A stretch of 64,000 nucleotides of DNA. Source: Brachycybe producta (taxonomy: Eukaryota; Arthropoda; Diplopoda; Playtdesmida; Andrognathidae). The notes below the pieces were generated by a model that did not search any database, had not been told where the DNA came from, and saw nothing but the letters and a program-made list of their open reading frames with translations. The DNA is taken from the NCBI GenBank assembly GCA_036925085.1, contig JAUPFP010000105.1:124001-188000 (forward strand). Direction: 5' to 3'. Below, one piece after another: positions 15,925 to 43,339 of the stretch (its first letter is position 1; each line of letters begins with the position of its first letter). The translations under genes and the position numbers were made by a program.

Positions 15925-16549
15925 TTAGGAATATAAAAATTTCAGTTTTACTTCACAGTCGAAGATATATGGCGCTTCTGCTATTGTGCCTAAAATGCAC
16001 AAAAATCAAAATTTGAAAATCAGCTGGCCATAAAACACCATAAAGATGAAATGGTTGAAATCTTCAAAAAATAATATTAGTGAGAAACACGTTTGTTGGA
16101 CACAAAGAAACATAGTGACTTTAGTGCTAAAACTTCTCAAACATTTCACCAAATATCAAGAAAAAACTGTCCTGTTCTAAATAAGAGAATTAATTGTTCA
16201 AGAGCCAATTCTTTATCATGTAAAAGTCAACACCTACTCAAAATGCCAAAGTAGATGCTCCGTTTCCTTTGCGGAAACTTTATTCATACATAAAAATTGC
16301 ACACACTCATTTCTTGAGCACTTACTCCGCTTCTTGTTAAGTAGCTGCTCAATTTTTATTCATACAACCACCCACTAAGAACAAAACAATCTTTAAATTT
16401 ATTCCATAAGTTGCTTTCAGAAAATCAGACCAACAGACTATACCTGCGATTTTCCATACAAACGACGACGTACAAACGATTCAGTGAAAATGGGATATAT
16501 ATATTTTTTTTACAAGAATTCAGTTATAATTGCGATATTTCATAAATAT

Positions 16550-16555
16550 TTTATT
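16550..16555 (-). terminator. Poly(A) signal of gene A
   Basis: AATAAA on the minus strand, about 70 nt after the stop codon of gene A. The same hexamer at the same spacing is present in B (29965-29970), C (37891-37896) and, at about 100 nt, D (43008-43013). Confidence 0.75.
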
Positions 16556-16625
16556 TCCATAATTTCATGAAACTCAGTACATACTGAATAGACAGAAATA
16601 GAACAGTGGATAGTAAAGTTGTAAA

Positions 16626-16823
16626 CTAACCATTCTTAGTAAAACATTCAAATTTAAAAGGGCCACCAGGATTTGGCAAACACTCTTCATTAGGAGCACA
16701 ACAATCATAATCACAGTAAGTATCCCCAGGTGGACACTCAGAGTTATCTCCACCCTGACACATGCCTAAGCTAAGAATGCTTAGCAGTAGCAGTAGTCCA
16801 AATAAGATCCTTTTATCAACCAT
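16626..16823 (-). CDS. Secreted six-cysteine peptide A (ICK-like spacing)
   Basis: Encodes 65 aa. The start is the ATG at 16823 (MVDKR). An upstream TTG frame only covers the end of the 5' UTR, and the acceptor TTTATCCTTAG sits just before it at 16842. In the spliced frame a TGA lies upstream with no other ATG between, which supports this start. Residues 1-22 are a signal peptide with a run of leucines; cleavage is likely before Q23, which could cyclise to pyroglutamate. The mature part is 43 aa with cysteines spaced C-x6-C-x3-CC-x5-C-x11-C and ends in KNG, where the final Gly might be an amidation site. Three acidic clusters (GDNSE, GDTY, NEE) make it acidic. The cysteine order resembles inhibitor cystine knot peptides, but the x5 loop is slightly outside the classical range and I recognise no family. 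Function unknown: an antimicrobial, inhibitor, signalling or toxin-like role is possible. Confidence 0.8.
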   Translation of the reverse strand: MVDKRILFGLLLLLSILSLGMCQGGDNSECPPGDTYCDYDCCAPNEECLPNPGGPFKFECFTKNG

Positions 16824-17098
16824 TTTAAATACGAAACGCAACTAAGGATAAAAAATACATTGTTTTAGAAACCTAAATTCATTTCAAATACATTTCTATT
16901 GAATACTTAAATTCGAAATTAAAGCACTAAATAGCTTTTTTTTAAGGATGTTTCAGAAATAAGTTAAAACTCCATTTCAATCGTTTATAACATTTTGTTT
17001 AAGAATTCCACTTTTAATTTAAGATATATTGGGATAACTGATTTGGGAAGAATAAACCACATTGCAAAATGTTTTTTCTTTCTTCAGAACAACATTAA

Positions 17099-17342
17099 GG
17101 CTAGGGCCACGCTTGCGTTCACCGAAGAGCGTTTTCACAACGTCGCGACAGAAACGCTGCCCATTGTTTCTTATGTAATTAACCATACTTGCACTCAGGT
17201 CGCAACTTTTTCAACGCTTTTTCTAATAACGTGAGAAAACAATAGCCAGCATCACGTCATCATCCATGGGCAGCATGATATAATATGGATATGGCCGCGG
17301 CGATCGTGTTGCAGCAACCAGAACGCAAGCATAACCATAGCC
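17099..17342. mobile_element. Harbinger-like MITE (TAA target duplication)
   Basis: The ends GGCTAGGGCCACGCTTGCGT and ACGCAAGCATAACCATAGCC are inverted copies flanked by TAA. Gene B has an uninterrupted AACATTAATATG at the matching place (near 30590), an empty site that confirms both the insertion and its 3-bp duplication. Confidence 0.85.
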
Positions 17343-17598
17343 TAAGATGAGATTCAAAAAGTTTTAGGTTACGTTTTTACATTGAAACATCTCCTACACG
17401 CGCGGATTAAAATACACAGTCACCTTTTGTACATCAAATAGAAGTCAAGAAATGTAGATTCTCCTCAATATAAAATTGCCATAATAGTTAATTTTAAAAT
17501 ACTTTTATTCCGTGTTTCCACTTGAGAAAAAAATGTGGGAGAAAATGCGTTTTAATCTAGATAATGCATAAATAATCACCCAAAAAGTACATTCTACA

Positions 17599-18467
17599 CA
17601 GGGTGGCAGTAATTTAAATCACATTGATTTAAATCATGATTTAAATCAAATGATTTTTTTAGAAAAAAATTTACATTTATTTAAATACTAGTGGGGTAAC
17701 CCGTCATAAACGACAGAAGCAAAATTCACAGGCAATTGTGCCCAGCATTAGAATTTCTTTTCCTCCACCCTTTTATGATGTCAGTCCAAGTAACAAACCA
17801 ATTAGAAATTGATGACGTTCATAAAAGGCCTGAGGAAAAGAAATTCTAATGCTGGGCACAGTTGCCCGTGATAAATTCTAGTTTAATTTTGCTACTATTA
17901 TCCACTATTACCCCCCCCCCCCCCCCCAAACCTAAATTTTACAGTGGAGTAATTTGAAAGTTTTTCTCTTCATTGAAGGAATAGGACTTAACATGGTATA
18001 CCACCATCTAGCAGCCAATGTGTAAAACTGTGGACTTACCACTGTTTACTACTGATAGAATTTGACAAGCTGTTTAAAAAGCACAAATTTTACATCTTAT
18101 GAAGATGTAAAATCGTTTTTTTTTTAAGTGACTTAACACAGTTTACCTCAGAGGTACTGAGATTTGCTTTGGGAACTGAAAAGGCTGCAAAGCTCGTGTT
18201 TACGTTTAGAATATTAAATTAAAAGTGCTTGAAATTTATTATTTTCAAATTTGAATGTTTCTTAACATTTTTTTTTCTTCTTTTGCAATTATTTTACTAA
18301 CTTAACAATTAACAATGCTATTAATACTCATTTTTGCAAACATCGTCATAAAAAAAAATTTAATATTTCATATAAATGAAAAAAAAAATCAAACAAATCT
18401 GATTTAAATAAAAAAAAATCGATTTATTTGATTTTTAAAAAAAAAATAAAAAAAATCAGCCACCCTG
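17599..18467. mobile_element. hAT-like non-autonomous element (8-bp target duplication)
   Basis: Inverted ends CAGGGTGGC and GCCACCCTG are flanked by a perfect 8-bp duplication ATTCTACA (17591-17598 and 18468-18475), diagnostic of hAT. Subterminal regions are rich in ATTTAAATC. No transposase is encoded. A Helitron remnant starting at 17688 lies inside, next to the left end. Confidence 0.85.
17688..17905 (-). mobile_element. Helitron 3'-end remnant with a long hairpin
   Basis: On the minus strand the element ends TTACCCCACTAG, next to a host T, with the terminal stem slightly decayed. It is the same family as the intact copies at 44817-45262 and 21093-28740. Inside, GCCCAGCATTAGAATTTC (about 17741) and its inverse (about 17838) form a hairpin with arms of about 38 bp. 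The 5' end is not found. Confidence 0.7.
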
Positions 18468-18962
18468 ATTCTACAATACGTAAAGCTGAATAATTTAATG
18501 TTTTCAATTAGTCGAATGTATTTTGAACTTGCAAGGAATACTGTGGTCGCCATTGTTAACATTTCTTTTTGGTTTTGCTAAGATTCTAATTTAGCTTTCC
18601 CTAATAGGGCAGATTTAACTAAAGCTCTACCTCGCAATAATGCCGTTTTAGTGTAGATAAATAATGGTCAGAAAAAGCAATTTATGGTTTAGTTAAAGTG
18701 ATAGGGGGTTACTCACTTCAATAGACCAATTATAAATCAAACTACTGTACTATTGTGAATAGACTGAGGGCCATGTGTGTGTGTGTGTGTGTGTGTTGTG
18801 CTGTCATATTGAATTCCTTTTCTCCTAATAGTGACATTACATTGCAGCAATAATGAAAATGCATTAGATAATTTCACCGTATAGTAAACTGATATTATTC
18901 AACAGTTGAAATTTTCACAATTTACACTTTCAAATGAACTTTGAACTTCTTTTGAAAGTTAC

Positions 18963-19325
18963 TTTTTATACCTCGTTTCCATTTAGAAAAGTTAAATGCA
19001 GTTGCAAAAATAACTGGTTAGTTTTTAGTGAAAACGAACAAAGCTAAATTAATTATGGTTTAACTAGAATACAATGCTGTTAACTCAGATACTTAGATGC
19101 AACATGGTTAAAAACATTACTGAAGGCGGCAACTGAGATCACTCAATGTTTGATTGAAAAAAGAGTGAAAACAAACATAAGAGAAGCTGTCGCAAAATCA
19201 TTAAATGTTTTAAAAATTACAACCAATCAAAGTGAATTTTCTAGCTTGACAGAAAGTTAACTATAATCTTGGTGATGTAAAAGTAGTTAATTTTTTTTAT
19301 AATGAGAACGAGGTATAAAAAGCTG
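18963..19325. mobile_element. Old mariner-like MITE in the intron, shared by the whole family
   Basis: TATACCTCGTTTCCATTTAG at the left is the inverse of the right end ATAATGAGAACGAGGTATA. A related pair is found at the matching place in the left-edge unit (about 1043-1395), B and C, and a shortened one in D (about 43610-43682). It therefore entered before the gene family expanded. A TA or TATA duplication is plausible but overlaps the symmetric end. Confidence 0.6.
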
Positions 19326-19393
19326 AATAGGCCTACCTTTTACCCCCTGCATCTGCTCTACTACACCTGATAAATTAGATAAAATTCTTACCA

Positions 19394-19487
19394 CTTGGAA
19401 AAGAGAAATTTCAAGTCAATTAAAACAGCCTGGACAAGTTGCTTTAAGAAAATGTACTATTTCACCATCTAGAGCACAGTATATATA
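19394..19487 (-). promoter_or_regulatory. TATA box and non-coding exon 1 of gene A
   Basis: TATATATA (19487-19480, minus) lies about 90 nt before the donor at 19394. With a start about 30 nt after the TATA box, exon 1 would be roughly 55-60 nt of 5' UTR, with a TGA in the coding frame and no usable ATG. The exon sequence is conserved in the left-edge unit, B and C. Confidence 0.6.
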
Positions 19488-19712
19488 CAGAAAGCATTGC
19501 CATAAATGTGTAAAAATAACTATTGTTCATATGTACTTAAAGTTTGAAAAACATCTTTTCTTCAAAATGTCATCTTCTGTCTTAGATCAAAGAGGATTTC
19601 AAAGCAAAAAGTTCTGTCAGTCACGCAATTGACAACTAATTATACAAAACGTCAAGCAATTATGTAAGTATGTTCAATGTATTCATGTATGCACAGCTTT
19701 TGAATTGACACA

Positions 19713-19783
19713 TGTTTAATAAAACAATCGCTATGGGTCGTATTCAGAATACGACACATAATGCTCAATTGTTTTATTAAACA
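19713..19783. repeat. Conserved hairpin upstream of gene A
   Basis: A 71-bp palindrome: outer arms TGTTTAATAAAACAA and its inverse, with inner symmetric core GTCGTATTCAGAATACGAC. It lies about 230 nt upstream of the TATA box. The same hairpin is upstream of C (41065-41135) and, somewhat decayed, of B (35609-35675). It may be a short MITE or a regulatory hairpin. Confidence 0.7.
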
Positions 19784-20466
19784 TTGCAAGATTATCCAAA
19801 GGTAGAGTAAGAAAGGTAGAAGGAAAGGTAGAAAGGTAAGAAATTTAAAGTAAGATAGGTGAAATTTCCTTCCTTGCATACTTTCAGGAAGACATTGAAA
19901 TATCTACATATAAATGAATTATTCAAAGTACATAAATTCCCTTTTCAGTGGAATTTGCTTCTGCATCATACCTAAGAGCAGCTTAAACTTGACACTTTAC
20001 GTCGAAACAAAAAGTGTTCGTTTTCAGCAGACAATTGATTCCTATGGGGCCATTCAGTATTCAAACAAGACACCGCCACCCTATTTTTGTTTTGCTAAAC
20101 AGTGTCAATGAGTGTTCGCAATGGTGATCAAGGTCATAACAGTTGAATGCGGTGGTCCGTGTGATGCATACCACATCTACCACCGTGCAGTGGCGTAGAT
20201 AGACTTTTTGGCGCCCAGGGGCAAGGTATAAATATGGTGCCCCCCATAACCACTAAGCCAACACAGGATATAGAATATAATTAAAATTTTCTCATAAAAA
20301 ACCATTATAGTCTAACTCAAATTTTAATTTTTATCTTTTCAACAACAATAAAAATGTTAGTAACAGTTCTATATTATTGTATTCATCTATTCTAAAAAAT
20401 TATAACAAATTAATTTCTCGGGCCTTTACTCCCGCAAATTTATTTATGTCACTAAAGTCTATTTTA

Positions 20467-20718
20467 TCAACGGAATCCTTCTTTCTCTACACTAAGAACT
20501 GCGAGATTACAGAGGCGATTCTGTTCCGTCGACGCCCTTAGATACGATAAAATGAGCTTCAGCTTGCTCAAGGAACGCTCACAGCTGGCCATTGATATTG
20601 CAATTGTTAGTAGAATTTGCAGAGCTACGCACAAATTTGGAAATGTATCATCACCATAAGACACAATGAAAAAGATTAATTCCAAGGGCGTCGATGGCAA
20701 AGCATCACCTCGCGCCAC
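20467..20718 (-). pseudogene. hAT transposase C-terminal dimerisation domain fragment
   Basis: An 83-residue frame that contains the hallmark of the hAT dimerisation domain as found in ZMYM1-like transposases: CVALQILLTIAISMASCERS, then LSKLKLILSYLR and LCNLAVLSVEKE. It ends at the natural C-terminus of such proteins. An acceptor-like TTTTTTGTTTTTAG precedes it near 20743, suggesting that it was a last exon. The catalytic core is not seen in the remaining hAT sequence, so the element cannot mobilise itself. Confidence 0.8.
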
Positions 20719-22257: not shown

Positions 22258-23974
22258 ATGGATAAATCAAATAACTTGGTACCACTTGCCTCTACCTCAT
22301 ATGTTGATGAGGTAGAGAAGGACTCCTCTCTTGTGGAAGGGTCGGGGGCCGTTCCCCATAGAACGGATAATGATGATGAGTGTGAACTGGTGATAGAAAT
22401 ACCAAGTAATTTGGAAAGCCAATTCAAGGCAGAATGGGACAAAACTATCGTCCCTAGAATCACAAAAGAAGCTGACAAGTACATAAAAGAATATTGTCAG
22501 TTGAATACTGGTGCCAGCCAAGGTCGGAAATTAAGAATAAAAGACGCCTTTATAAAAGACATGGAGCGTCAGGCCAAAAAAGAGTTGCTTGAAAAGTTAA
22601 TTAGTCGGACAAGACTAAATGAAACTACTGGTAGGACACGTTCCTCCAGCGCAGGCAGCACTAGTGGGTGTGGCCTGTGGGTCGTTAGCGAAAAAGACCA
22701 AGAAGAAATACGTTCAAACGCAAAGAGAAGACGAACAGACCTGCAAAGGCAGGTGTCACCAAGTGAAAAAGGAAATACTACAACCGAGATAAGCCAAGAG
22801 CAAGACATGTTCAGCAAAGATCATATTGCATTACTGAAGAACATGTATGATCAAGTTGGAGCAATTAAAACGGCTGTTAGTCGTGAAAATAACAGCAAGA
22901 TTCAATTTAACAAAATGGAACAGAAATTGGTCTACGATAGTTTGGAGGAAATCGTAAAAATATTCTCCATAATGAACGAACGAAACCACGACTTGGAAAT
23001 CTCACTACTTAAAGGGCTTATTAGACAAAAAGGAACAGTATCAGACGTGGAACCAAAAATGGATATGGAAACCGAAAATATGGAAACGAGTCTCTCTATC
23101 CTCAAAAAGAAAAGAAAGCCAAGCCACAAAGAAATAAATACATCGTTGGCTACTAAAGACACCAACCTTCGCACTAACACATATGCGCAAGTGGCAAGGA
23201 AAACGCAACCAAGCAAAGCATCAAACGAGAATATTATTCTTGTCAAATGCAAAGAGAACGAGATGTCGCCACGGCGCATGCGGAATACATTACAGTCTAA
23301 AATCTCAATTGATGACATCGGAGGAAGCCTGAAAAATGTGCGTGAAGGGAGAAATGGTGTACTAGTGCTTGAGGCTCACGGTGAAGTGCAAAGAAATCGA
23401 TTGATTGAGAAACTTAAGGATATGAGAAATTTCTCATACGATCGGCCAAAACAAAGATTGCCTAAGATTATAATTACTGGTGTGGATAAAGACAAGAGTA
23501 CAGCCACACTAATCGATGAAATAGTGAGTTATAACGATGAACTTAAAACCATGATTGGAGAGGAGAAAGTATTCCGAGAAGGACTCGACTGGGTTGCTGA
23601 TAGGCAGTGTAGGAATACTGCAAAGAAAAACGTTCTGTTACGAGTCTCCACAAAAGTTTACAAGGCCATGAGCTCAAACTGGAAGCTAAACCTGGGATGG
23701 CAAAGACACAGACTTGAGGAATGGGTAGATGTGACCCAATGGCCTCAAATGCAACGAACTTGGACACAAGGCGATGGATTGCAAGAAGGCAGTGGAAAGC
23801 TGCATTGCCTGTGGAGAAGATCATAAGGTGAAGGATTGCAAGAGTACCAAAATAGAATGCATAAACTGCAAGAAGAAAGGGATACTGGAGAGAAGCCACA
23901 CTTCAAGAGACAAAAAGTGTCCGATCTATTTGAAAGCCTGGGACAGTTCATGGTCGCAGATCGATCATGGATAA
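22258..23974 (+). CDS. LINE 1 ORF1: nucleic-acid-binding protein with CCHC knuckles (one frameshift)
   Basis: ORF1 of non-LTR elements coats the RNA and shields it during reverse transcription. The first 494 or so codons (22258 to about 23741) are hydrophilic and charged, with a KRRR-type basic patch and Ser-rich stretches. Around 23741-23744 (CAATGGCCTC) the reading shifts by one base. Beyond it the frame reads C-x2-C-x4-H-x4-C, then C-x2-C-x3-H-x4-C, then a third cysteine-rich finger, and stops at 23974. An extra G in that G-pair would explain the shift. The stop overlaps the ORF2 start in ATGGATAA, so ORF2 is probably made by reinitiation or coupling. Confidence 0.8.
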
Positions 23975-26900
23975 GATCACCTTTATGCAAATCAACCTGG
24001 GGAAAGGGGCAGCCGCTGAAGACTGTCTGGAAAGGTCCAGCAGAGATGCAGATTTCGTATGCATCCAAGAGCCTAACCCACAGATAATTCATAAGAATAA
24101 GCTGTTGGGTGGTGAACTATGCAGATACGAGGGCAACGTAAAGTCCATAATAGTAACTAGAAAAGGAGCCAAAGTTACTTCCCTCAGAAGTTACATGTCA
24201 CCAAATCTGGCCGTGTTGCTGGTCGAGCGCCAAACGTCGGCCTTCATTATAGCTAATGTCTATGCTGAGCCAAACTGTGACTTTGAGAGCATGCTGATAA
24301 AATTGAGAATGCTGCTCACGCAAAGGAGAGAACCACTAATTCTAGTTGGTGACTTTAATGCTAAGCACCCTGTTTGGGGTTCGCACGAGGCTAACCCAAG
24401 AGGGTCAAGCCCACTCGAGTTTATTCTGTCCCAGAGACTGAAAATTAATAATGACTGCAGGCAAGGCCCAACATTTATTTCCACCAACGGAATTAGTTGG
24501 ATTGATCTCACACTCACCAGAGATATTGAAGTCGACAAATGGGAGATCTTGAGCTCTGAGACTTTAAGCGACCACAGATACATTAAGTTCACAATCATGG
24601 CGCAGGCAAACCAAAACAGGGTTAAGCCAAAATTTAACTGGAAAAAGACAAACTGGAGTATCTTCAGTGCTGAAATAGACCAAGCAGTCATTGGACTGCC
24701 TAATAACGATGCTCAAGTCGAGTCCAAAAAATTTAATAATGCCTGTGAACTTGCCTGTTTCAAAGCAATGCCGCTGATTAAAAAGCCTACCTCTGCCAAA
24801 ACTAATAAATGGTGGACTATAGAACTAGACCAAATAAGGAAAGACACTCGGATAGCAAGGACGAGATTTCAGAGAGAACGACAACGAAACCAAAGAGATG
24901 AACTACATGCGGCATATAAAGCTAAAAGACGTGCTTTTAAGCGTGAGATATTGAAAGCCAAAGCCCAATCATGGAAAAGATTCTGCGAGGAAGCATCAAC
25001 AAAGGACCCATTCAGTCTTCCTTATAAAATACTTGCAGGAAAGACGAGGCCTAGCGAATCATTTCCTACGCTAGAAAAAGTTGATGGAACATGGACAAAC
25101 AATGAAAAGGACACGATGCTATGGTTGCTGAGCGAATACTTCCCGCAAGACCGACCTGAACTCGACTCGGAGGAGCAGCAGAAAATGAGAGTGGAGAATA
25201 TGGAAGAATATATCCCTAATGTGGTAGACGACCCTCCCTTCTGTGAAGGAGAACTGGAATTGGCTGTGAGTGAGATACAGGTCTCGAAAGCACCTGGAAA
25301 CGATGGGATTCCGCCTGCAGTCCTGAAACACCTTCTTAAAACTGGAGAGCATCACCTTTGTAAGCTCTATAATAAATGCCTTTCAGAGGGGCAATTTCCA
25401 AGAATCTGGAAAGAGGCCAAAGTGGTCTGGATCGAGAAAAGCTGTACCAAAACATATCGTCCAATATGTCTACTACCTGTAATAGGGAAGCTGTTAGACA
25501 AACTCTGTGCAAAAAGGCTTTCCTTCTTCCTGGAAAAGAACGGCCTCTTATCAAATGAGCAATATGGATTTAGAGAGGACAAGAGCACAGTCATGGCAAT
25601 TGAAGCGCTACAAACATGTATCGCAACTTTGAAATCGCAAAAGAAACGCGCGCTAGTTATATCTTTAGATATAAAGAATGCATTCAACTCAGCATGGTAT
25701 CCACAAATTCTGCTGTGTCTGAAAAAGATGAAATGCCCAAGCAATCTGGTATCAGTCATAGCCTCTTTCCTTGAGGAGAGAGTTGCGGCTTCTGGACCAG
25801 CAAGTATTAATATGACAAGAGGGTGCCCACAAGGCTCATGTTTAGGGCCTATACTATGGCTGGTCCTTATGGAGACATTCTTCATAAACATAAAAACTAA
25901 ACTTGGACAAGACGATGCTGTTCAAGCATTTGCTGACGATGTAATAATTATCGTAACTGGGAAATCTGTGAAAGTCATAGAAGAAAAAGTTAATCCAATT
26001 CTGGAAAGTTGCTCCCTATGGGCAGAAAAGTCTAAGTTGCAGTTTTCAACTCTCAAAACCACGGCCCTGTTCTTCCCAGCCAGTAACATATTACGACGTC
26101 CCAAAGTTTCATTTGAAGGACGGCAAATCAAACTTGAATCTAAAATGAAATACCTAGGACTTTGGATCGACCCTAAGTGGCAATGGCTCTGCCATATCAA
26201 GGGTGTTGCGGAAAAATCGATGGGTTTAGCTTCGAGACTCTTCTATATCTGCGGCAGTGAGTGGGGAATGAGACCCAAAACACTACGGGACGTATACCTC
26301 AGATGCGTGGAGCCAATGATTATGTATGGCTCCGAAATCTGGGGAGTAAGAGGCAGAGATACGAGAGTCATCGCAAGACTCGACGCAACTCAAAGACCGT
26401 TCCTAAGAGCCATTTGTAAGGCGTACAGGACTACCTCGAACAAGGCTCTGCAGGTCATAACGAACTGCCCTCCGCTGTGGTTGAAAGCTGAACGTAACCA
26501 TACGGGTTGGAAAATGAAGAGTCAGTACGCCGATAGGATGGAAACCCCTATGCCCATGAGGGACAGAGATCACCCGGGCCACGGCAAGGTGTATAAGATT
26601 GAAGAGTTCGAAGAGAGAGACGAGAAGAGCCACAACCTTCAAGCATATACAGACGGATCGAAACTGGATGGAAAAGTTGGCGCTGCTATGGTCCTTGTAG
26701 ACCGTCAAAAAGTAATCCGCAAATGGAAAGGAAGGTTACCTGACGTATCAACGGTATACCAGGCCGAGCTGTATGCCATTAACGTGGCAGCAACACATAT
26801 TCTGCAGTTGGACATAGAAGGAAAGGAAATCTCTCTAATGGTCGACTCTAAATCAGCTCTCCAAGCGGTGGCCAAAGGGGATAAAAAGAACAGCAATGCC

Positions 26901-27485
26901 TGCAGGGCAAACAAAAATATTAGTAAGATTGTTGAGAGAGGTGGGAAAATAACGCTAAAATGGATAAAGGCACATGCAGGATGGAAGTGGAACGAATACG
27001 TGGATAAAGTAGCAAAACTTGCAACCAAGAACGTCACTCATCTGCAAGAGAAGACACCGCAACGCTGGATTACTCGACAACTGGAGAAAACTGCAACTGA
27101 ATTGTGGCAGCAAGACTGGGATCAGTCAATAAAAGGCCGAGAAACTTATAGATGGATCCGAACAATAAATGTAAAAAGGCAGCCTATGTCTGGGAAGATA
27201 GTCCAGATGATCACCGGACATGGAGACTTTAATAGATACAAAAGACGGTTTAATCTTGGAGACAATGAAACCAATGGCATGTGCGACTGCGGACAGGAGG
27301 AGGATTCGATCGATCATGTACTCTGGAGATGTAGGACGGCACATGTCATAGAAGCCAGAAATAAGCTACAGATGGCAACAAACCAGGCCAACCTTGGATG
27401 GCCTTGTGAAGTGGAAAAACTTTTAATCAACGAACTAATTGAGCATTTTAAGATTTTCTGCAGAGAAATCTTTGAAGAAGAATAA
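23967..27485 (+). CDS. LINE 1 ORF2: endonuclease, reverse transcriptase, RNase H
   Basis: An uninterrupted 1172-codon frame. Residues 1-215 form an APE-type endonuclease (QINLGKG near residue 8, IQEP near 35, GDFNAKHPVWGS near 125, SDHRYIKF near 200). The reverse transcriptase spans about 425-720, with LDIKNAFNSAW (about 567), GCPQGSCLGPILW (about 615) and the catalytic FADD (about 655). RNase H spans about 890-1010, starting AYTDGSK, with the Glu in YQAELYA and Asp in MVDSKSA. The C-terminus has CDCGQEEDSIDHVLWRC, typical of the group. With all catalytic motifs present and no stop, this frame looks intact; activity of the element is limited by the ORF1 shift. Confidence 0.92.
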   Translation: MDKITFMQINLGKGAAAEDCLERSSRDADFVCIQEPNPQIIHKNKLLGGELCRYEGNVKSIIVTRKGAKVTSLRSYMSPNLAVLLVERQTSAFIIANVYAEPNCDFESMLIKLRMLLTQRREPLILVGDFNAKHPVWGSHEANPRGSSPLEFILSQRLKINNDCRQGPTFISTNGISWIDLTLTRDIEVDKWEILSSETLSDHRYIKFTIMAQANQNRVKPKFNWKKTNWSIFSAEIDQAVIGLPNNDAQVESKKFNNACELACFKAMPLIKKPTSAKTNKWWTIELDQIRKDTRIARTRFQRERQRNQRDELHAAYKAKRRAFKREILKAKAQSWKRFCEEASTKDPFSLPYKILAGKTRPSESFPTLEKVDGTWTNNEKDTMLWLLSEYFPQDRPELDSEEQQKMRVENMEEYIPNVVDDPPFCEGELELAVSEIQVSKAPGNDGIPPAVLKHLLKTGEHHLCKLYNKCLSEGQFPRIWKEAKVVWIEKSCTKTYRPICLLPVIGKLLDKLCAKRLSFFLEKNGLLSNEQYGFREDKSTVMAIEALQTCIATLKSQKKRALVISLDIKNAFNSAWYPQILLCLKKMKCPSNLVSVIASFLEERVAASGPASINMTRGCPQGSCLGPILWLVLMETFFINIKTKLGQDDAVQAFADDVIIIVTGKSVKVIEEKVNPILESCSLWAEKSKLQFSTLKTTALFFPASNILRRPKVSFEGRQIKLESKMKYLGLWIDPKWQWLCHIKGVAEKSMGLASRLFYICGSEWGMRPKTLRDVYLRCVEPMIMYGSEIWGVRGRDTRVIARLDATQRPFLRAICKAYRTTSNKALQVITNCPPLWLKAERNHTGWKMKSQYADRMETPMPMRDRDHPGHGKVYKIEEFEERDEKSHNLQAYTDGSKLDGKVGAAMVLVDRQKVIRKWKGRLPDVSTVYQAELYAINVAATHILQLDIEGKEISLMVDSKSALQAVAKGDKKNSNACRANKNISKIVERGGKITLKWIKAHAGWKWNEYVDKVAKLATKNVTHLQEKTPQRWITRQLEKTATELWQQDWDQSIKGRETYRWIRTINVKRQPMSGKIVQMITGHGDFNRYKRRFNLGDNETNGMCDCGQEEDSIDHVLWRCRTAHVIEARNKLQMATNQANLGWPCEVEKLLINELIEHFKIFCREIFEEE

Positions 27486-29964: not shown

Positions 29965-29970
29965 TTTATT
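29965..29970 (-). terminator. Poly(A) signal of gene B
   Basis: AATAAA on the minus strand, about 72 nt past the stop, at the same relative place as in A and C. Confidence 0.75.
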
Positions 29971-30041: not shown

Positions 30042-30245
30042 CTAACCATTCTTAGAAAAACATTCAAATTTAAAAGGGCCACTATTAGTTGGCAAACATT
30101 CCTCATCAGGTGTACAGCAATCCAAAGCACAAAATGTATCCTCAGTTGGACACGCAAAGTCATCACCACCCTGACACATGCCTAAGCTAAGCATGCTTAG
30201 CAGTAGTAGTAGTAGTAGTCCAAATAAGAACCTTTTATCAACCAT
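30042..30245 (-). CDS. Secreted six-cysteine peptide B
   Basis: Encodes 67 aa from the ATG at 30245, which follows the acceptor TATCCATAG/TTGCG at 30264. The signal peptide is two leucines longer than in A, owing to an expanded CTA run (plus strand GTA repeats at 30200-30220). The mature part after the predicted cut before Gln is 43 aa with the same spacing C-x6-C-x3-CC-x5-C-x11-C. It differs from A at many positions between cysteines (for example ALD for DYD, TPDEE for APNEE) yet shares the end PFKFEC, and its last 36 coding nucleotides differ from A at one base. The C-terminus is SKNG. The intron is about 5 kb and carries a CR1-like LINE. Function unknown, as for A. Confidence 0.8.
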   Translation of the reverse strand: MVDKRFLFGLLLLLLLSMLSLGMCQGGDDFACPTEDTFCALDCCTPDEECLPTNSGPFKFECFSKNG

Positions 30246-31351
30246 TTTAAATAGGAAACGCAACTATGGATAAAATACATTGTTTTAGAAACCTAAATTA
30301 ATTTCAAATAAATCTTTGTTAAAAAAATAAAATCAAAATTAAGGATATTGAAAAGTGCCACAAACGTCATGCAATGGGGCGATATAGGGGACATCATTAA
30401 TAATATTTCGACTGTCTTAATTAAAATATAAAAGGTGATGAATTCATGATGACTCATGAATAAGAAAACAAAATTAACTTCAATAATCTGTCCAATTAAA
30501 TCTTTTATGGCAATTTTTGATGATATATGTAATTTTGGGAAGAATAAACAACATGGAAAATGTTTTTGTTTTTCAGAAACAACATTAATATGAAATACAA
30601 ATAGTTTAATATACGTTTTACTTTTAAACGTATTAAACGTTTAAACGTATTCCAGGCTTAATAAAGACATTATATTATTACAGCAATTTAATGAAAATTC
30701 CTTAGATAATTTCACCATAGTAAACTGATATTATTCAACAGCTAAAATTTTCACAATTTAATAATTTTCATCTAGTGGAAAAAAGAGCCTTATGATCATA
30801 TATTCTATTATAAAAGTTATATGCAGTTTGAAATGATAACCACAATTAGTTATTAGTAAAACAAGTGTGGTTAGATTAACCAAGGTTGAATTATAATGCA
30901 ATACTTTTAACTCAACTGCATAGACGCAATATGATTAACCACATAACTGCAGGCGGGAAGATCACTCAATGTTTTTAACTCAAAAAAGGGTGACAACATA
31001 AGAGAAAGTGACACGAAATCATTAAATGTTTTAAAAATTGCAACCAATCAAAGTGAATTTTCTTGCTTGACGTCAGGTTAACTATATCCACGGTGATGTA
31101 AAGGTAGTTAATTTTTATAAAGGGAACGAGGTATAAAAAGCTGAACAGGCCCACTGGCCCACCTCGATCTCTGCATCTAATCTACTACCTGATAGATAGT
31201 TTGAATTTCATAGGGGAAGGACGTGTCTTTTTTTGCTCTGTCCTCTCAGTCAAAAATTAGTTTTGAATATTATTTTTTCTTTCTTGTTTGTATGGCCTAA
31301 TTTTAATTTTAAGCCATTTAACTAGTTATTTTGATATTGTGCTCCACTTTA

Positions 31352-32260
31352 ATGGATAAGCAAGCTATTGGAGATGAAATCAAAGTGATTTTGGGCTCCA
31401 TTTTCAAGAAAAAAACTTCTACTGTGGACCAGAGAGATCGTTTGTTTGCTCTTATTGACCTGTTGACCTCTGCTGAAGAACGTCTGGAATGTGCTGATTG
31501 CAATTCCCAGGAGGAACCCACACCTCAATTGGATAGAAGTATTTCTGCTATCACATTGGATTCTTTGGACTCTCGTATTTCCAGTTTGGTGCAAGTCATT
31601 AATAATTTGGCCACTAGTACAAATACAAGATTGGCAAGTCTTGAAGGCCATACCAAGGCCATCAGCTGTTCAAACCCTGTGTCTTCCCCCTCTATTCTTC
31701 AGTCCTGCTCCAGTGGAACAGCACTTACTACTGGTCCTGGTACATCTTTGACGTGGGCCTCAGTGGCTAAAAAGGGTTTGGCCCCTTTGGATGTCCCTGC
31801 AACCTCGAAGTCTCTACAAGTTAAAGATAAAGCTCCTAGGGGCAGGAACAAAGACCAACCTGTGTATCAAGAAAAGAAGAAATCTCGAGGCACTAAGATT
31901 ATTGGTAGTAGGGTTGACGTCGCATCCCTGCAAGGAAAATCCCAGCGGTTAAGGCTTTTTGTTAGTGGGTGCATTCCCACAACTTCCCCATCGGTGCTAC
32001 GTTCCTATCTGGAAGAGAATGATGTTGCAGTTTTGGATGTCAAACAAACATCTCGTCCTGGAAGCTATGCTGCATCGTTTTTTATCTCAATTGATAGCAA
32101 GTCTAAGCCATTGGTTGTGGATGATAAGTTTTGGCCAAAAGACATTTCCATTCGTGAATGGAAGGGTCCTGATCCCCATCCAAATGTTACTTGCAACTTG
32201 GATGCTTCTAATTTTGCTGGGTCAGTCATTCCCCCTGATGCTGGGGGGATTCTGGCCTAA
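31352..32260 (+). CDS. CR1-like LINE ORF1
   Basis: 302 codons from the ATG at 31352 (MDKQAIGDE). The N-terminal third contains heptad-like leucines (LDSRISSLVQVINNL), probably a coiled coil for trimer formation. The middle is Ser/Pro/Lys-rich and basic (KDKAPRGRNKDQ). The last third (from about residue 195, RLRLFVSGCIP, then SIREWKGP) resembles the RRM-like or C-terminal RNA-binding fold of LINE ORF1 proteins. No zinc knuckle is seen. The frame is intact and its end overlaps the start of ORF2 by about 23 nt. Confidence 0.65.
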   Translation: MDKQAIGDEIKVILGSIFKKKTSTVDQRDRLFALIDLLTSAEERLECADCNSQEEPTPQLDRSISAITLDSLDSRISSLVQVINNLATSTNTRLASLEGHTKAISCSNPVSSPSILQSCSSGTALTTGPGTSLTWASVAKKGLAPLDVPATSKSLQVKDKAPRGRNKDQPVYQEKKKSRGTKIIGSRVDVASLQGKSQRLRLFVSGCIPTTSPSVLRSYLEENDVAVLDVKQTSRPGSYAASFFISIDSKSKPLVVDDKFWPKDISIREWKGPDPHPNVTCNLDASNFAGSVIPPDAGGILA

Positions 32261-35066
32261 CAATACTGTTCAAGGGTCAGGCGCGTCTGAACTGTCGTGC
32301 AAATTGGGGCTAAAATGTCTTCTTATAAATGCACGCAGTGTGTATAATAAACTTGACCACCTGCACCACTTTTTGCTGTCACGATCTGATGTCAACTGCT
32401 TTTGTTTTGTTGAAACATGGCTGTTTGACTCTATACCTGACTCTTTAATTGTACCTGATGGGTTTTCAGTTCTGAGATGTGATAGGGAATCACGTGGAGG
32501 TGGGGTCTGCCTAATATTATCCAGTGGTGTCCAGTACTCAAAAGTGACTTGCTTTAGACAAGGAGGAAAATTACTTTGTGTTGATCTTCATAATCATGGT
32601 TCTGCCTTACGGTTAATTACATGCTATCAAAGCCCCCTTTGCTCTACATCAGAAACTGCAACCAATAGCTTAATAGATAGCTTGCAGTCAGTTTTAAACT
32701 TTCGTGGTCCAACAGTGATTGTTGGTGACTTTAATAGACCACACATTGATTGGCACATATTTCAAGCCAATAATACATTGGATATGTCTTTTGCTAATTT
32801 TTTGTTTGAAAATGCTTTCTCCCAATTAGTACTGTTTCCAACACGTGGAGACAACACTATCTTTAATTTTTTGTGATGTTCATAATGTTGTTTGTAATGT
32901 CTATGGGGATGAACCTTTTTGTCTGAGTGACAAGCCCCCTCATTTAGCTGTCTACTTTGCTATTCCCAATTTTGGTCCAGTTGAAGCTCACCCTGTACCT
33001 AGGCGGATATTAAACAACCATGCCCTAGCACAGATTAAACATCATCTCCATTCAATTATCTGGCCCAAAGCAAACCAATGTTTTGACATTGAAACAGTCT
33101 GGGTAGAATTTCAGTCCATTGTTCTTGGTGCAGTAAATAAATATGCCCCAATTGTTTCTACTAGACGAGTGTCCTATGTTCCACGCTGTACTCGTAAGGC
33201 ATTCAACCATAAATTGATGTGTTGGAGGAACTGGAAGCGTACCAATGACCCCATAGCTTTGACTCTGTCTCTTACTATCGTCAAGTAGTTAGAGATAATG
33301 CTGCCAGACTTGAAATTGGTGCAGTTAGTAGTCGTGATAATACTACCTTTTTTAAGTTCGTGCGCAGACGTCTTTGCAATCACGCAAAAATTCCAAACTT
33401 GGTTTTAGAAAATGTGGTAATTAGTTCTTCAGAAACAGAACAGGCAGAATTCTTAAACCTTGAATTTGCTAACTCATACTCACAAAATAACCGTATACCA
33501 AACGACTGTACTAATCCACTTTATACCGATCTTGGAGCACTTTATTCCTTTAATGTGCACACTATTTATGAATTGCTTAATAATATACGTCCAAATTGCA
33601 CTCCTGGGCCTGATGGAATTCCTGCCAGGGTATTAAAGCATTGTGCGGCAGAGCTTGCCAGCCCAATTTGTGATCTATTTAAGTTATCTTTACTATCAGG
33701 CAGTTTACCTTCCGACTGGAAATTGGCCATTGTACGTCCTCTCTTTAAAAAAGGTGATCGTACACTGCCAAAGAATTATAGGCCAATATCGCTCACAAGT
33801 ATTATATGTAAGCTAATGGAAAGGATAATTGGGGAATATTTATTAAATCATATGAAATCAATGAACTTGCTTGCCTCAAACCAGTATGGTTTCCTTCCCA
33901 CTCGTTCTTCAACGATACAACTTCTTGACTGTCTACTAGAAATTGTGGACTGCGTAGATAAAAAGAAGCCTGCAACTGTGGCTTATCTTGATTTTACATC
34001 TGCATTTGACAGAGTTGATCATGGTCTTCTGATGGCCAAGCTTGCTAGATATGGTATAGCAAACCCTGTCTATGGATGGATACAGGTTTTTCTGACTAAC
34101 CGCTTCCAGTCAGTTCAAGTGGGATCAACCCTCTCGTGTGTTAGCTCAGTTGGCAGTGGGGTAATTCAGGGTAGCGTATTGGGACCAATCCTATTTGGTA
34201 TATTTATTAATGATATAGCACAAAACAATCTCTGTAAGACCCTGCTTTATGCCGATGATGTTAAATGTGTATCCAGTTGTTTGGAGAAACTGCAAGGAAC
34301 CCTATCTAACATATCAGATTGGGCAGATACTAATGGCATGTCTCTTTCAATTGACAAGTGTATGGTGCTGGACTTTAATACTAAAGGGCTGGCATCAAGT
34401 CTATCTTGTATGGGCAGCGCCATTAAATTGGTTCCTGAAGCCCGAGACCTGGGTGTCTTATTTAATGATAAGTTAAATTTCTCATCACATTGTAACGTAA
34501 TGTGTTCCAAAGGCCATCAAAGGGTAGGCATATTATTTAAAGTATTGCCCAATAGCCCAATTACAGTATTAGTCATGGCCTTTAAGGCATTTGTAATCCC
34601 AATCCTGAGTTATGCCTCTTCAGTGTGGTCCCCATATCTGATACGAGATATTGACGCAATAGAGGCAGTTCAGCGTAGATTTACTAAACAATTGAAAGGC
34701 TTGTCTAATATGTCGTATATACAACGATTACATTCCCTTGGAATAATTACTCTTGAACTCAGACGCCTCCATACCGACTTAGTATTGTTATACAAAATAT
34801 TGGCTAAGGATGTTTTTTTCCCCTCGGAGTGGGAGTCTTTCCTAATATTTTCTCCAACAATCACTAGGTCCCACTCAAAGCGTATTATGTCACCTGTAGC
34901 TCGCATTAATTGTAAACAACACTGTTTTTTTAATAGGGTCATCCCTATTTGGAATTCACTCCCACAATATGTAGTGGACTCCTCATCATCAGCTAGCTTT
35001 TATGCTAATGTTAAGACATTGGATCTAGCTTGTTGGTTGCGTGGACGGGCTGCAAGAGGAAATTAA
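32238..35066 (+). pseudogene. CR1-like LINE ORF2: endonuclease and reverse transcriptase, two frameshifts
   Basis: ORF2 begins near the ATG at 32238. The endonuclease shows INARSVYNKL, FVETWLF and VIVGDFNRPHIDW. The frame shifts near 32866 (after TRGDNT) and shifts back near 33255, so the middle stretch (DVHNVVCNVYGDEPF) lies in a different frame. From there to 35066 it is open: RT motifs NYRPISL, YLDFTSAFDRVDHGLL, VIQGSVLGPILFG and the catalytic LLYADD (about 34245), then the usual CR1 C-terminal region with SYASSVWSPYLI and IPIWNSLPQYVV. Two offsetting frameshifts and no stop codons suggest moderate age. Confidence 0.85.
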
Positions 35067-37488: not shown

Positions 37489-37966
37489 ACCAAATATCAA
37501 GAAAAAACTGTCTTGTTTTAAATAAGAAAATTATTTGTTCAAGAGCCAATTCTATATCATGTAAAAGTCAACACCTACTCAAAATGCCAAAGTAGATGCT
37601 CCGTTTCCTTTGCGGAAACTTTATTCATACATAAAAATTGCACACACTCATTTCTTGAGCACTTACTCCGCTTCTTGTTAAGTAGCTGCTCAATTTTTAT
37701 TCATACAACCACCCACTAAGAACAAAACAATCTTTAAATTTATTCCATAAGTTGCTTTCAGAAAATCAGACCAACAGACTATACCTGCGATTTTCCATAC
37801 AAACGACGACGTACAAACGATTCAGTGAAAATGGGATATATATATTTTTTTTACAAGAATTCAGTTATAATTGCGATATTTCATAAATATTTTATTTCCA
37901 TAATTTCATGAAACTCAGTACATACTGAATAGACAGAAATAGAACAGTGGATAGTAAAGTTGCAGA

Positions 37967-38155
37967 CTAACCGTTTTTAGAAAAACAATCATATACATAA
38001 GGGAAACGAGTAGTTAGCAAACACTCTTCATTAGGACTACAACAATGATAATCACAGTAAGTTTCCCCAGTTGGACAATCTCCACCCTGACACATGCCTA
38101 AGCTAAGAATGCTTAGCAGTAACAGTAGTCCAAATAAGATCCTTTTATCAACCAT
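37967..38155 (-). CDS. Secreted six-cysteine peptide C
   Basis: Encodes 62 aa from the ATG at 38155, with the same acceptor and 5' UTR as A. The signal peptide is identical in sequence to A (one synonymous Leu change, CTA to TTA). The mature peptide is 40 aa, three residues shorter before the first cysteine, and keeps C-x6-C-x3-CC-x5-C-x11-C. The last loop (LLTTRFPYVYD) is wholly unlike A and B (PFKFE). By eye about 19 substitutions and a 9-nt indel fall in roughly 115 mature-coding nucleotides, while the flanking kilobases differ from A by about one base in a hundred. The densest patch is 37961-38016. The end is SKNG. Poly(A) signal at 37891-37896. Confidence 0.8.
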   Translation of the reverse strand: MVDKRILFGLLLLLSILSLGMCQGGDCPTGETYCDYHCCSPNEECLLTTRFPYVYDCFSKNG

Positions 38156-38429
38156 TTTAAATACGAAACGCAACTAAGGATAAAAAGTACATTGTTTTAG
38201 AAACCTAAATTCATTTCAAATACATTTCTATTGAATACTTAAATTCGAAATTAAAGCACTAAATAGCTTTTTTTAAGGATGTTTCAGAAATAAGTTAAAA
38301 CTCCATTTAAATCGTTTATAACATTTTGTTTAAGAATTCCACTTTTAATTTAAGATATATTGGGATATCTGATTTGGGAAGAATAAACCACATTGCAAAA
38401 TGTTTTTTCTTTCTTCAGAACAACATTAA

Positions 38430-38673
38430 GGCTAGGGCCACGCTTGCGTTCACTGAAGAGCGTTTTCACAACGTCGCGACAGAAACGCTGCCCATTGTTT
38501 CTTATGTAATTAACCATACTTGCACTCAGGTCGCAACTTTTTCAACGCTTTTTCTAATAACGTGAGAAAACAATAGCCAGCATCACGTCATCATCCATGG
38601 GCAGCATGATATAATATGGATATGGCCGCGGCGATCGTGTTGCAGCAACCAGAACGCAAGCATAACCATAGCC
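38430..38673. mobile_element. Harbinger-like MITE, duplicated copy
   Basis: Same element and same TAA flanks as 17099-17342, copied with the segmental duplication. Confidence 0.85.
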
Positions 38674-38928
38674 TAAGATGAGATTCAAAAAGTTTTAGGT
38701 TACGTTTTTACATTGAAACATCTCCTACACGCGCGGATTAAAATACACAGTCACCTTTTGTACATCAAATAAAGTCAAGAAATGTAGATTCTCCTCAATA
38801 TAAAATTGCCATAATAGTTAATTTTAAAATACTTTTATTCCGTGTTTCCACTTGAGAAAAAAATGTGGGAGAAAATGCGTTTTAATCTAGATAATGCATA
38901 AATAATCACCCAAAAAGTACATTCTACA

Positions 38929-39799
38929 CAGGGTGGCAGTAATTTAAATCACATTGATTTAAATCATGATTTAAATCAAATGATTTTTTTAGAAAAAAAT
39001 TTACATTTATTTAAATACTAGTGGGGTAACCCGTCATAAATGACAGAAGCAAAATTCACAGGCAATTGTGCCCAGCATTAGAATTTCTTTTCCTCCACCC
39101 TTTTATGATGTCAGTCCAAGTAACAAACCAATTAGAAATTGATGACGTTCATAAAAGGCCTGAGGAAAAGAAATTCTAATGCTGGGCACAGTTGCCCGTG
39201 ATAAATTCTAGTTTAATTTTGCTACTATTATCCACTATTACCCCCCCCCCCCCCCCCCCCAAACCTAAATTTTACAGTGGAGTAATTTGAAAGTTTTTCT
39301 CTTCATTGAAGGAATAGGACTTAACATGGTATACCACCATCTAGCAGCCAATGTGTAAAACTGTGGACTTACCACTGTTTACTACTGATAGAATTTGACA
39401 CGCTGTTTAAAAAGCACAAATTTTACATCTTATGAAGATGTAAAATCGTTTTTTTTTTAAGTGACTTAACACAGTTTACCTCAGAGGTACTGAGATTTGC
39501 TTTGGGAACTGAAAAGGCTGCAAAGCTCGTGTTTACGTTTAGAATATTAAATTAAAAGTGCTTGAAATTTATTATTTTCAAATTTGAATGTTTCTTAACA
39601 TTTTTTTTTCTTCTTTTGCAATTATTTTACTAACTTAACAATTAACAATGCTATTAATACTCATTTTTGCAAACATCGTCATAAAAAAAAATTTAATATT
39701 TCATATAAATGAAAAAAAAATCAAACAAATCTGATTTAAATAAAAAAAAAATCGATTTATTTGATTTTAAAAAAAAAATAAAAAAAATCAGCCACCCTG
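38929..39799. mobile_element. hAT-like non-autonomous element, duplicated copy
   Basis: Same ends and same ATTCTACA duplication (38921-38928, 39800-39807) as 17599-18467. The Helitron remnant inside starts at 39018 and keeps the hairpin of about 38-bp arms. Confidence 0.85.
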
Positions 39800-40103
39800 A
39801 TTCTACAATACGTAAAGCTAAATAATTTAATGTTTTCAATTAGTCGAATGTATTTTGAACTTGCAAGGAATACTGTGGTCGCCATTGTTAACATTTCTTT
39901 TTGGTTTTGCTAAGTTTCTAATTTAGCTGTCCCTAATAGGGCAGATTTAACTAAAGCTCTACCTCGCAATAATGCCGTTTTAGTGTAGATAAATAATGGT
40001 CAGAAAAAGCAATTTATGGTTTAGTTAAAGTGATAGGGGGTTACTCACTTCAATAGACCAATTATAAATCAAACTACTGTACTATTGTGAATAGACTGAG
40101 GGC

Positions 40104-40149
<46 letters not shown>

Positions 40150-40743
40150 GTGCTGTCATATCGAATTCCTTTTCTCCTAATAGTGACATTACATTGCAGC
40201 AATAATGAAAATGCATTAGATAATTTCACCGTATAGTAAACTGATATTATTCAACAGTTGAAATTTTCACAATTTACACTTTCAAATGAACTTTGAACTT
40301 CTTTTGAAAGTTACTTGTTATACCTCGTTTCCATTTAGAAAAGTTAAATGCAGTTGAAAAAATAACTGGTTAGTTTTTAGTGAAAACAAACAAAGCTAAA
40401 TTAATTATGGTTTAACTAGAATACAATGCTGTTAACTCAGATACTTAGATGCAACATGGTTAAAAACATTACTGAAGGCGGCAACTGAGATCACTCAATG
40501 TTTGATTGAAAAAAGAGTGAAAACAAACATAAGAGAAGCTGTCGCAAAATCATTAAATGTTTTAAAAATTACAACCAATCAGAGTGAATTTTCTAGCTTG
40601 ACAGAAAGTTAACTATAATCTTGGTGATGTAAAAGTAGTTAATTTTTTTTATAATGAGAACGAGGTATAAAAAGCTGAATAGGCCTACCTTTTACCCCCT
40701 GCATCTGCTCTACTACACCTGATAAATTAGATAAAATTCTTAC

Positions 40744-40839
40744 CACTTGGAAAAGAGAAATTTCAAGTCAATTAAAACAGCCTGGACAAGTTGCTTTAAG
40801 AAAATGTACTATTTCACCATCTAGAGCACAGTATATATA
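40744..40839 (-). promoter_or_regulatory. TATA box and non-coding exon 1 of gene C
   Basis: TATATATA at 40839-40832 (minus) and donor at 40744, essentially identical to gene A, so A and C should be expressed alike if the promoter is functional. The upstream hairpin is at 41065-41135. Confidence 0.6.
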
Positions 40840-41539
40840 CAGAAAGCATTGCCATAAATGTGTAAAAATAACTATTGTTCATATGTACTTAAAGTTTGAA
40901 AAACATCTTTTCTTCAAAATGTCATCTTCTGTCTTAGATCAAAGAGGATTTCAAAGCAAAAAGTTCTGTCAGTCACGCAATTGACAACTAATTATACAAA
41001 ACGTCAAGCAATTATGTAAGTATGTTCAATGTATTCATGTATGCACAGCTTTTGAATTGACACATGTTTAATAAAACAATCGCTATGGGTCGTATTCAGA
41101 ATACGACACATAATGCTCAATTGTTTTATTAAACATTGCAAGATTATCCAAAGGTAGAGTAAGAAAGGTAGAAGGAAAGGTAGAAAGGTAAGAAATTTAA
41201 AGTAAGATAGGTGAAATTTCCTTCCTTGCATACTTTCAGGAAGACATTGAAATATCTACATATAAATGAATTATTCAAAGTACATAAATTCCCTTTTCAG
41301 TGGAATTTGCTTCTGCATCATACCTAAGAGCAGCTTAAACTTGACACTTTACGTCGAAACAAAAAGTGTTCGTTTTCAGCAGACAATTGATTCCTATGGG
41401 GCCATTCAGTATTCAAACAAGACACCGCCACCCTATTTTTGTTTTGCTAAACAGTGTCAATGAGTGTTCGCAATGGTGATCAAGGTCATAACAGTTGAAT
41501 GCGGTGGTCCGTGTGATGCATACCACATCTACCACCGTG

Positions 41540-41919
41540 CAGTGGCGTAGATAGACTTTTTGGCGCCCAGGGGCAAGGTATAAATATGGCGCCCCCCATA
41601 ACCACTAAGCCAACACAGGATATAGAATATAATTAAAATTTTCTCATAAAAAACCATTATAGTCTAACTCAAATTTTAATTTTTATCTTTTCAACAACAA
41701 TAAAAATGTTAGTAACAGTTCTATATTATTGTATTCATCTATTCTAAAAAATTATAACAAATTAATTTCTCGGGCCTTTACTGCCGCAAATTTATTTATG
41801 TCACTAAAGTCTATTTTATCAACGGAATCCTTCTTTCTCTATACTAAGAACTGCGAGATTACAGAGGCGATTCTGTTCCGTCGACGCCCTTAGATACGAT
41901 AAAATGAGCTTCAGCTTGC
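41540..41919. mobile_element. Left end of the hAT element, truncated by the duplication breakpoint
   Basis: Starts with CAGTGGCGTAGATAG after CCACCGTG, as at 20188. It ends inside the dimerisation-domain coding region, keeping only the last third or so of that fragment. Confidence 0.85.
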
Positions 41920-43114: not shown

Positions 43115-43339
43115 TTAATAACAGCATCTGGGACGGGAATATCTTTCAGAAGAAGCACAGTGAGCGGGCTGAAGTACGCCTAATATAAAGCTTTCTTTAA
43201 AACAAAATTCATCCGAAGTACAACATTCAGTTCCACATTCAACTTTATTAGCTGGACATGAAATAATGAATGAAACTATGTAAATGCTAAGAATGCTTAG
43301 CAGTAGTAGTAGACGACATAAGATCCTTTCATGAAACAT
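43115..43339 (-). CDS. Secreted cysteine-rich peptide D, diverged family member
   Basis: Encodes 74 aa from the ATG at 43339, after acceptor CCACAG/TTGCA at 43358. The signal segment (MFHERILCRLLLLLSILS) is clearly homologous to A-C, but the part after it is hydrophobic (IYIVSFIIS) and lacks the QGGD start. The core keeps C-x6-C-x3-CC-x5-C, then the next cysteine comes after 14 residues and a further C-x10-CC follows, so it has nine cysteines after the signal region. An odd number could mean a dimer or one free thiol. The mature part is basic at its end (SERYSRPR), unlike acidic A-C. The promoter, donor (43746/43745) and poly(A) signal are conserved in position. The intron is only 0.4 kb. Confidence 0.7.
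   Translation of the reverse strand: MFHERILCRLLLLLSILSIYIVSFIISCPANKVECGTECCTSDEFCFKESFILGVLQPAHCASSERYSRPRCCY

Follow-up and report, generated by a model that had tools for sequence, protein, structure and literature searches.

Two copies, A and C, of a gene for a putative small, secreted, cysteine-rich peptide lie in a young 4.4-kb duplicate within the analysed window (64,000 nucleotides, bases 124001-188000 of contig C105, in an assembly of 295.3 Mb and 442 contigs), and their divergence is concentrated in the part that codes for the mature peptide. The reading that we prefer, with a probability of roughly 0.5, combines the young duplication with diversifying selection on the mature part and a short interlocus conversion tract, which would have passed from B, an older copy of the gene, into A or, less likely, from an unseen or lost paralogue into C. 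Conversion and its direction, selection, secretion and any function of the two peptides are points that we infer from the comparisons given below.

The Duplicated Block and Its Divergence Peak

Copy C occupies positions 37489-41919 of the window and copy A positions 16148-20567, with the gene on the minus strand in both cases (blastn identity of 98.2%). The ends of the blocks are sharp. A retained haplotig is unlikely, since both blocks lie on one contig and extended homology between A and C is absent past their ends.

Substitutions were counted in 37560-41900, leaving aside the first ~70 bp and the final 19 bp of the block. There, 39 substitutions were found in 4317 aligned columns, and 21 of them fall, together with a 9-nt indel, in the 129 bp of 37961-38089 (minus strand), which comprise the mature coding part and 6 nt of the 3′UTR. 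The divergence of this peak is 16.3% against 0.43% in the flanks (18 substitutions in 4188 columns), that is, 38-fold. An earlier note, based on reading the sequence by eye, had put A and C at about one difference in a hundred over 4.4 kb; the measured value for the flanks is lower and hence the contrast is stronger than that note had it. Five extra substitutions are located at 37513-37554, in the omitted left part, and with these counted in, the flank divergence is ~0.5%.

The comparison of the two blocks in windows of 60 columns, a check which the note had proposed, places the peak at the mature exon. In detail, the two windows at 37956-38075 contain 15 and 6 substitutions and the next one (38076-38126) contains 1 and the 9-nt gap, whereas the remaining windows in the block show 0-2 and the two windows straddling the block ends 7 and 26. 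In 20,000 uniform shuffles of the substitutions, the richest window of 129 bp reached 10, as compared with the 21 observed, in agreement with the claim that drift is inadequate for this patch. The composition that had been noticed by eye also holds: the signal part has a single synonymous change and no nonsynonymous one, and the mature part has 19 coding substitutions (17 nonsynonymous and 2 synonymous) besides the indel. The other two changes of the peak are in the 3′UTR, 2 and 4 nt past the stop codon.

The differences in the flanks are compatible with a uniform distribution (P = 0.13 for the maximal gap and P = 0.16 for the gap variance). On its 3′ side the peak breaks off within a few bases, and the ~400 bp past this edge contain no difference between A and C, which is unremarkable at this rate (P = 0.18).

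Three further elements were observed within the blocks. The left edge overlaps a dispersed repeat of at most ~200 bp (37490-37690) with many genomic matches of ~70-90% identity, which was possibly involved in the duplication. The biggest indel between the blocks is a 20-nt (TG)n expansion of C relative to A (40106-40125). An imperfect palindrome of 146 bp, 80% self-complementary, is located in the presumed intron of both copies (17726-17871 in A and 39056-39201 in C).

Members and Structure of the Gene Family

Seven members, A to G, were all that protein searches of the assembly matched when A, D and G served as queries. Four of them are in the window, all as open frames on the minus strand: A (16626-16823, 65 aa) and C (37967-38155, 62 aa; start, stop and signal boundary set by eye), B (30042-30245, 67 aa), from which the 3′ tract of A may derive, and the more distant D (43115-43339, 74 aa). 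E, just left of the window, has a broken frame and F (C105:211806) stops early, with an open frame of 47 aa, while G (C16:3053061) is open. Contig C16 also carries three remnants (L013 3706-3891, L014 4666-4841 and L014 5867-6138), two of which retain the 3′ end only; in the third one the 5′UTR lies beside the tail, with nothing of the signal and little of the mature part left.

In A, B and C, a signal segment, whose boundary was placed by eye, is followed by a mature part with six cysteines spaced x6, x3, x0, x5 and x11; the mature part of A is acidic (about -6 by hand count). An acceptor-like AG is found 18 nt before the ATG, at equal distance in A, B, C and D. Behind the acceptor TTAG, the 5′UTR part of exon 2 would be 38156-38173 in C (16824-16841 in A), and the whole CDS appears to be placed in exon 2. 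An upstream patch conserved in five members (A, B, C, E and F) has the donor AAGTG/GTAAGAA at its end, so that exon 1 is probably non-coding; its final part in C is predicted at 40744-40800 (minus strand, the upstream limit 40800 being arbitrary), and the predicted exon ends in the others are 19392 in A, 35242 in B and 1480 in E. Exon 1 of B lies near 35.2 kb because a non-LTR element (31331-35066) occupies the presumed intron. The poly(A) signal AATAAA is situated on the minus strand at 37891-37896 in C, 16550-16555 in A and 29965-29970 in B, at a distance from the stop codon of 70 nt (A and C) or 71 nt (B).

In 20 of the 21 pairs of members, the DNA identity of no other part falls below that of the mature part, with D-F as the exception, in a comparison that includes the broken E and F and in which several aligned lengths are short (9-24 nt). 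Outside the A/B/C pairs, mature identity is 0.61-0.72 (over alignments of 9 to 140 nt). With A-C set aside, identity is 72-95% in the signal part and 73-91% in the 110 nt upstream of the ATG. As judged from these alignments, the family conserves its UTR and signal DNA, and the mature part between them is diversified.

Substitution Pattern and Possible Point Selection

Between A and C, the mature part has 17 nonsynonymous changes in 96.2 sites (17.7%) and 2 synonymous in 23.8 sites. The nonsynonymous excess over the flank rate is strong (P about 6e-22). Silent and UTR changes are also raised, with 4 in 29.8 sites (13.4%) against 0.13 expected (P = 1e-5, rising to 6e-5 if the flank rate is set at its upper 95% bound), an argument which consists of four substitutions in ~19-30 sites within tract limits picked post hoc. 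Mature dN and dS are 0.20 and 0.09 for A-C, 0.17 and 0.35 for A-B, and 0.24 and 0.49 for B-C. What speaks for selection is how the patch differs from its flanks rather than dN/dS by itself, because the nonsynonymous and synonymous rates inside the A-C patch do not differ significantly (Fisher P = 0.36). The 9-nt indel is in frame, both frames are open, and all seven cysteine codons (one of them at the signal boundary) read TGT in A and C; the chance that 19 coding changes would spare the six mature ones is 0.03.

The two ends of the patch have different signatures. The 5′ part of the mature region (38018-38089, minus strand) contains five nonsynonymous changes, no synonymous one and the 9-nt indel, which seems the pattern that diversifying selection would give. 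The densest tract (37963-38016, minus strand) contains 16 of the 21 substitutions: 12 nonsynonymous and 2 synonymous changes in the 3′ part of the mature region and the 2 adjoining UTR changes. All four silent or UTR changes are inside 14 bp at the 3′ end of the tract. Since these four are too many for a duplicate with 0.43% divergence, a short conversion tract is the reading that we favour for the 3′ end.

Point mutations under diversifying selection could also be the sole cause, with no exchange of DNA, an account which we consider unlikely. It has on its side that 17 of the 19 coding changes are nonsynonymous and that the cysteine codons are spared. Moreover, the A-C differences in the block from Cys 1 to Cys 5 are found in both copies (two derived in A, two derived in C and one other), and for scorpion toxin genes the available part of PMC2651877 considers diversifying selection to be enough by itself. 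On the contrary, the cluster of two synonymous and two UTR changes in a span of 14 bp is difficult for this account, the expectation for the entire patch being 0.13. A clustered multi-nucleotide mutation could also yield these four changes, and this counts against conversion. The earlier note had offered very fast selection as one option; it accounts for the 5′ half of the mature part but not for the four silent changes of the 3′ end, and a mixture of processes fits the patch better than any single option does.

The Proposed Conversion Tract and Its Direction

Under the preferred reading, duplication with selection and conversion, the mature-coding 120 bp would be the target of diversifying selection, with point changes and the 9-nt indel arising after the duplication in A and C both. 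A conversion tract of at least 54 bp would then cover the final 16 codons and the very start of the 3′UTR, with B as the likelier donor and A as the recipient, or an unseen or lost paralogue as the donor and C as the recipient. The resulting mosaic would have been kept by selection because the mature peptide changed, with the greatest change in the loop between Cys 5 and Cys 6.

In 37961-38016, A and B match in 51 of 56 bases, A and C in 40 and B and C in 42 (5, 16 and 14 differences, respectively). A is therefore closest to B in this stretch, as had been noticed, and the match that the note had called almost perfect amounts to these 51 bases. The affinity is reversed elsewhere. In the flanks and the signal part, over ungapped columns alignable with B, 29 of the 30 three-way differences set B apart (15/15 in the 5′ flank, 11/11 in the 3′ flank and 3/4 in the signal), and in the 5′ part of the mature region B alone differs in 13 of 20. 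In the 3′ part and the adjoining 9 nt, C is the odd one in 11 of 15 and B in 1. This count splits the exon slightly nearer its 3′ end than the count of nonsynonymous and synonymous changes, and a comparison of three sequences gives branch lengths and not topology.

The silent sites of the tract give likelihoods of 2.7e-7 for point selection alone, 0.048 for an unseen donor and 0.037 for B into A, over ~19 sites with limits set post hoc and with one free parameter for the unseen donor and none for B into A. The two directions thus fit about equally. Conversion of C by an unseen paralogue, as originally suggested, still has a share in the preferred reading, although the donor search of the assembly came back empty: DNA searches with 128 bp, 64 bp and a 31-base pattern (at most 3 mismatches), which were not exhaustive, matched only C, plus A, the latter at 82% with the 128-bp query. 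For the 57-base tract of C, exact words shared with seven retrieved loci or with other parts of the window are at most 9-13 bases long. The reverse event, conversion of A by B, had been left out of the earlier note, and it requires no unseen donor. We take it as the likelier one because B is present and matches in 51 of 56 bases; as A and B differ at the other 5, it requires later changes in A. The silent divergence of B and C in the tract is somewhat high for this direction (4/19 at 7.7%, P = 0.05).

Polarisation with D-G is not decisive for the direction. When the mature part was aligned by MAFFT, D-G shared the state of C where A=B at 9 sites, that of B where A=C at 4 and that of A where B=C at 1. 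The ratio of 9 to 4 favours a link of A and B, but most of the 9 are in the poorly aligned 3′ part. In the block from Cys 1 to Cys 5, five shared-derived sites join A and C and one joins A and B. The two UTR changes, where the outgroups align, look derived in C.

There are hints of an older exchange involving B. The synonymous divergence of A and B in the 5′ part of the mature region is high (7 in 15.5 sites, P = 0.006 at 15%), as compared with 4.6% in the 3′ flank and 15% in the 5′ flank.

Just past the two UTR changes of C begins a stretch of ~110 bp of 3′UTR and downstream DNA (37852-37962; 16511-16621 in A) with no substitution among A, B and C and with small gaps in B, whose flanks at large differ from those of A and C by 5-15%. 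The stretch may reflect constraint or else homogenisation at an earlier time. GC-biased conversion was also considered and set aside, since a hand count shows no lean (5 changes from A to C towards G+C and 7 away).

Other Explanations

A and C could instead be an old duplicate, whose flanks were homogenised by gene conversion between them while selection protected the mature exon, as in a Teshima-Innan peak (cf. primate opsin exon 5). The earlier note had raised homogenised flanks, and they are a possible but improbable cause. The peak does sit over the presumed target of selection, the nonsynonymous (17.7%) and silent (13.4%) rates within it are similar, as a single patch of old age would show, and the left block edge is more diverged, which the available part of PMC2588116 leads one to expect where conversion is ineffective at edges. 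However, that edge is partly inside the dispersed repeat, another source of divergence, and the flank differences are compatible with a uniform spread, with none over ~400 bp past the sharp 3′ edge, which is in itself unremarkable.

Equally improbable are two long-lived alleles under balancing selection, differing in the mature exon and joined on one haplotype by the duplication. A divergence of 0.43% is within ordinary allelic variation in insects, and an old patch in young flanks is what such alleles would give. The narrow 3′ edge, however, demands much past recombination.

More doubtful still is a locus that acts as a diversification system, either by repeated exchange of short mature-exon cassettes among paralogues, alleles and remnants, with E, F and the C16 pieces as a worn-out pool, or through a mature exon that hypermutates, silent sites included. 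The leader and the UTRs would then have stayed fixed while the peptide was rewritten within a single young duplication. An assembly or polishing error is very unlikely, as both frames are open, the cysteine codons are intact and the indel is of 9 nt.

Identity of the Peptide

The members most likely form a small family of secreted cysteine-rich peptides under diversifying selection, to judge from their sequences. By anatomy, a toxin or a defence peptide would be the likeliest class, an assignment that rests on patterns which we take to be typical of such families. A Pfam scan of A-D (A, B and C without the first Met and D without the last residues) gave no domain above the gathering cut-off, the best scores being 8.3 bits against 25 and 12.1 against 27, and a search for protein homologues returned three candidates with shared words, none with E ≤ 1. 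The PDB sequence matches of A to fasciculin 1 (E = 0.17) and candoxin (E = 4.3) were taken as chance. A structure model of A, built from 5 sequences (pLDDT 79, pTM 0.46), has four predicted short strands, and Foldseek found no match to it at E ≤ 0.001 (best 0.94).

The six cysteines with an adjacent pair, the small size of the putative secreted peptide and the four short strands of the model resemble an inhibitor cystine knot. On the other hand, in the arrangement found here, C-x6-C-x3-CC-x5-C-x11-C, the loop between Cys 4 and Cys 5 is longer than in the usual knottin consensus.

Comparison with Known Systems

Conserved signal DNA and flanks, a diversified mature part, a retained cysteine scaffold and tandem duplicates are features shared with toxin families such as snake venom PLA2, scorpion toxins and conotoxins. 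Snake PLA2 is reportedly a case of an accelerated mature part in a toxin gene (Nakashima 1993). Such acceleration is described in the available parts of PMC2651877 and PMC10561478, and the latter quotes earlier work in which conotoxin mature exons are about three times as diverged as the flanking non-coding DNA. A and C differ from these families in that the contrast reaches 38-fold within a single young pair and silent sites, too, show an excess.

A narrow diverged island in nearly identical duplicates, the other feature of A and C, is known from the work of Teshima and Innan, from opsins, from a Drosophila transporter pair and from GOT1 of a copepod, as far as the available parts of PMC3924837, PMC2588116 and PMC3728101 go. 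The difference is that here a young duplication explains the likeness of the flanks equally well as concerted evolution. The pattern is thus of a known kind, and its distinctive points are how large the contrast is (38-fold against about 3-fold in conotoxins) and that the silent excess is confined to one end.

For toxin and defence peptides, it is a standing question whether hypervariable mature exons come about by point mutation and selection, by conversion from paralogues or from old alleles. The A/C pair is unusually clean for this question: the flanks, at 0.43%, are a neutral clock in the same molecule, the halves of the exon differ in signature, and the candidate donor B is located ~13 kb from A.

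Other Elements of the Window and the Assembly

Besides the element in the presumed intron of B, which has a reverse transcriptase frame of 568 aa, a non-LTR retrotransposon is located at 22258-27485. It has open frames of 522 and 1172 aa, and the second includes endonuclease, reverse transcriptase and RNase H domains. Tandem repeats of ~3.3 kb (10237-13555; unit of ~30 bp from BLAST offsets, GC of 52-57%) are open in several frames on both strands, with translations rich in Cys, Thr, His and Arg, and are followed by a 36-bp array at 14622-15481. Three units of TTATTGGG were not found in the assembly. Five units of TTAGG gave 7853 overlapping matches, as compared with 4 for the reversed control; long arrays of this arthropod-type motif suggest that the DNA is probably from an arthropod.
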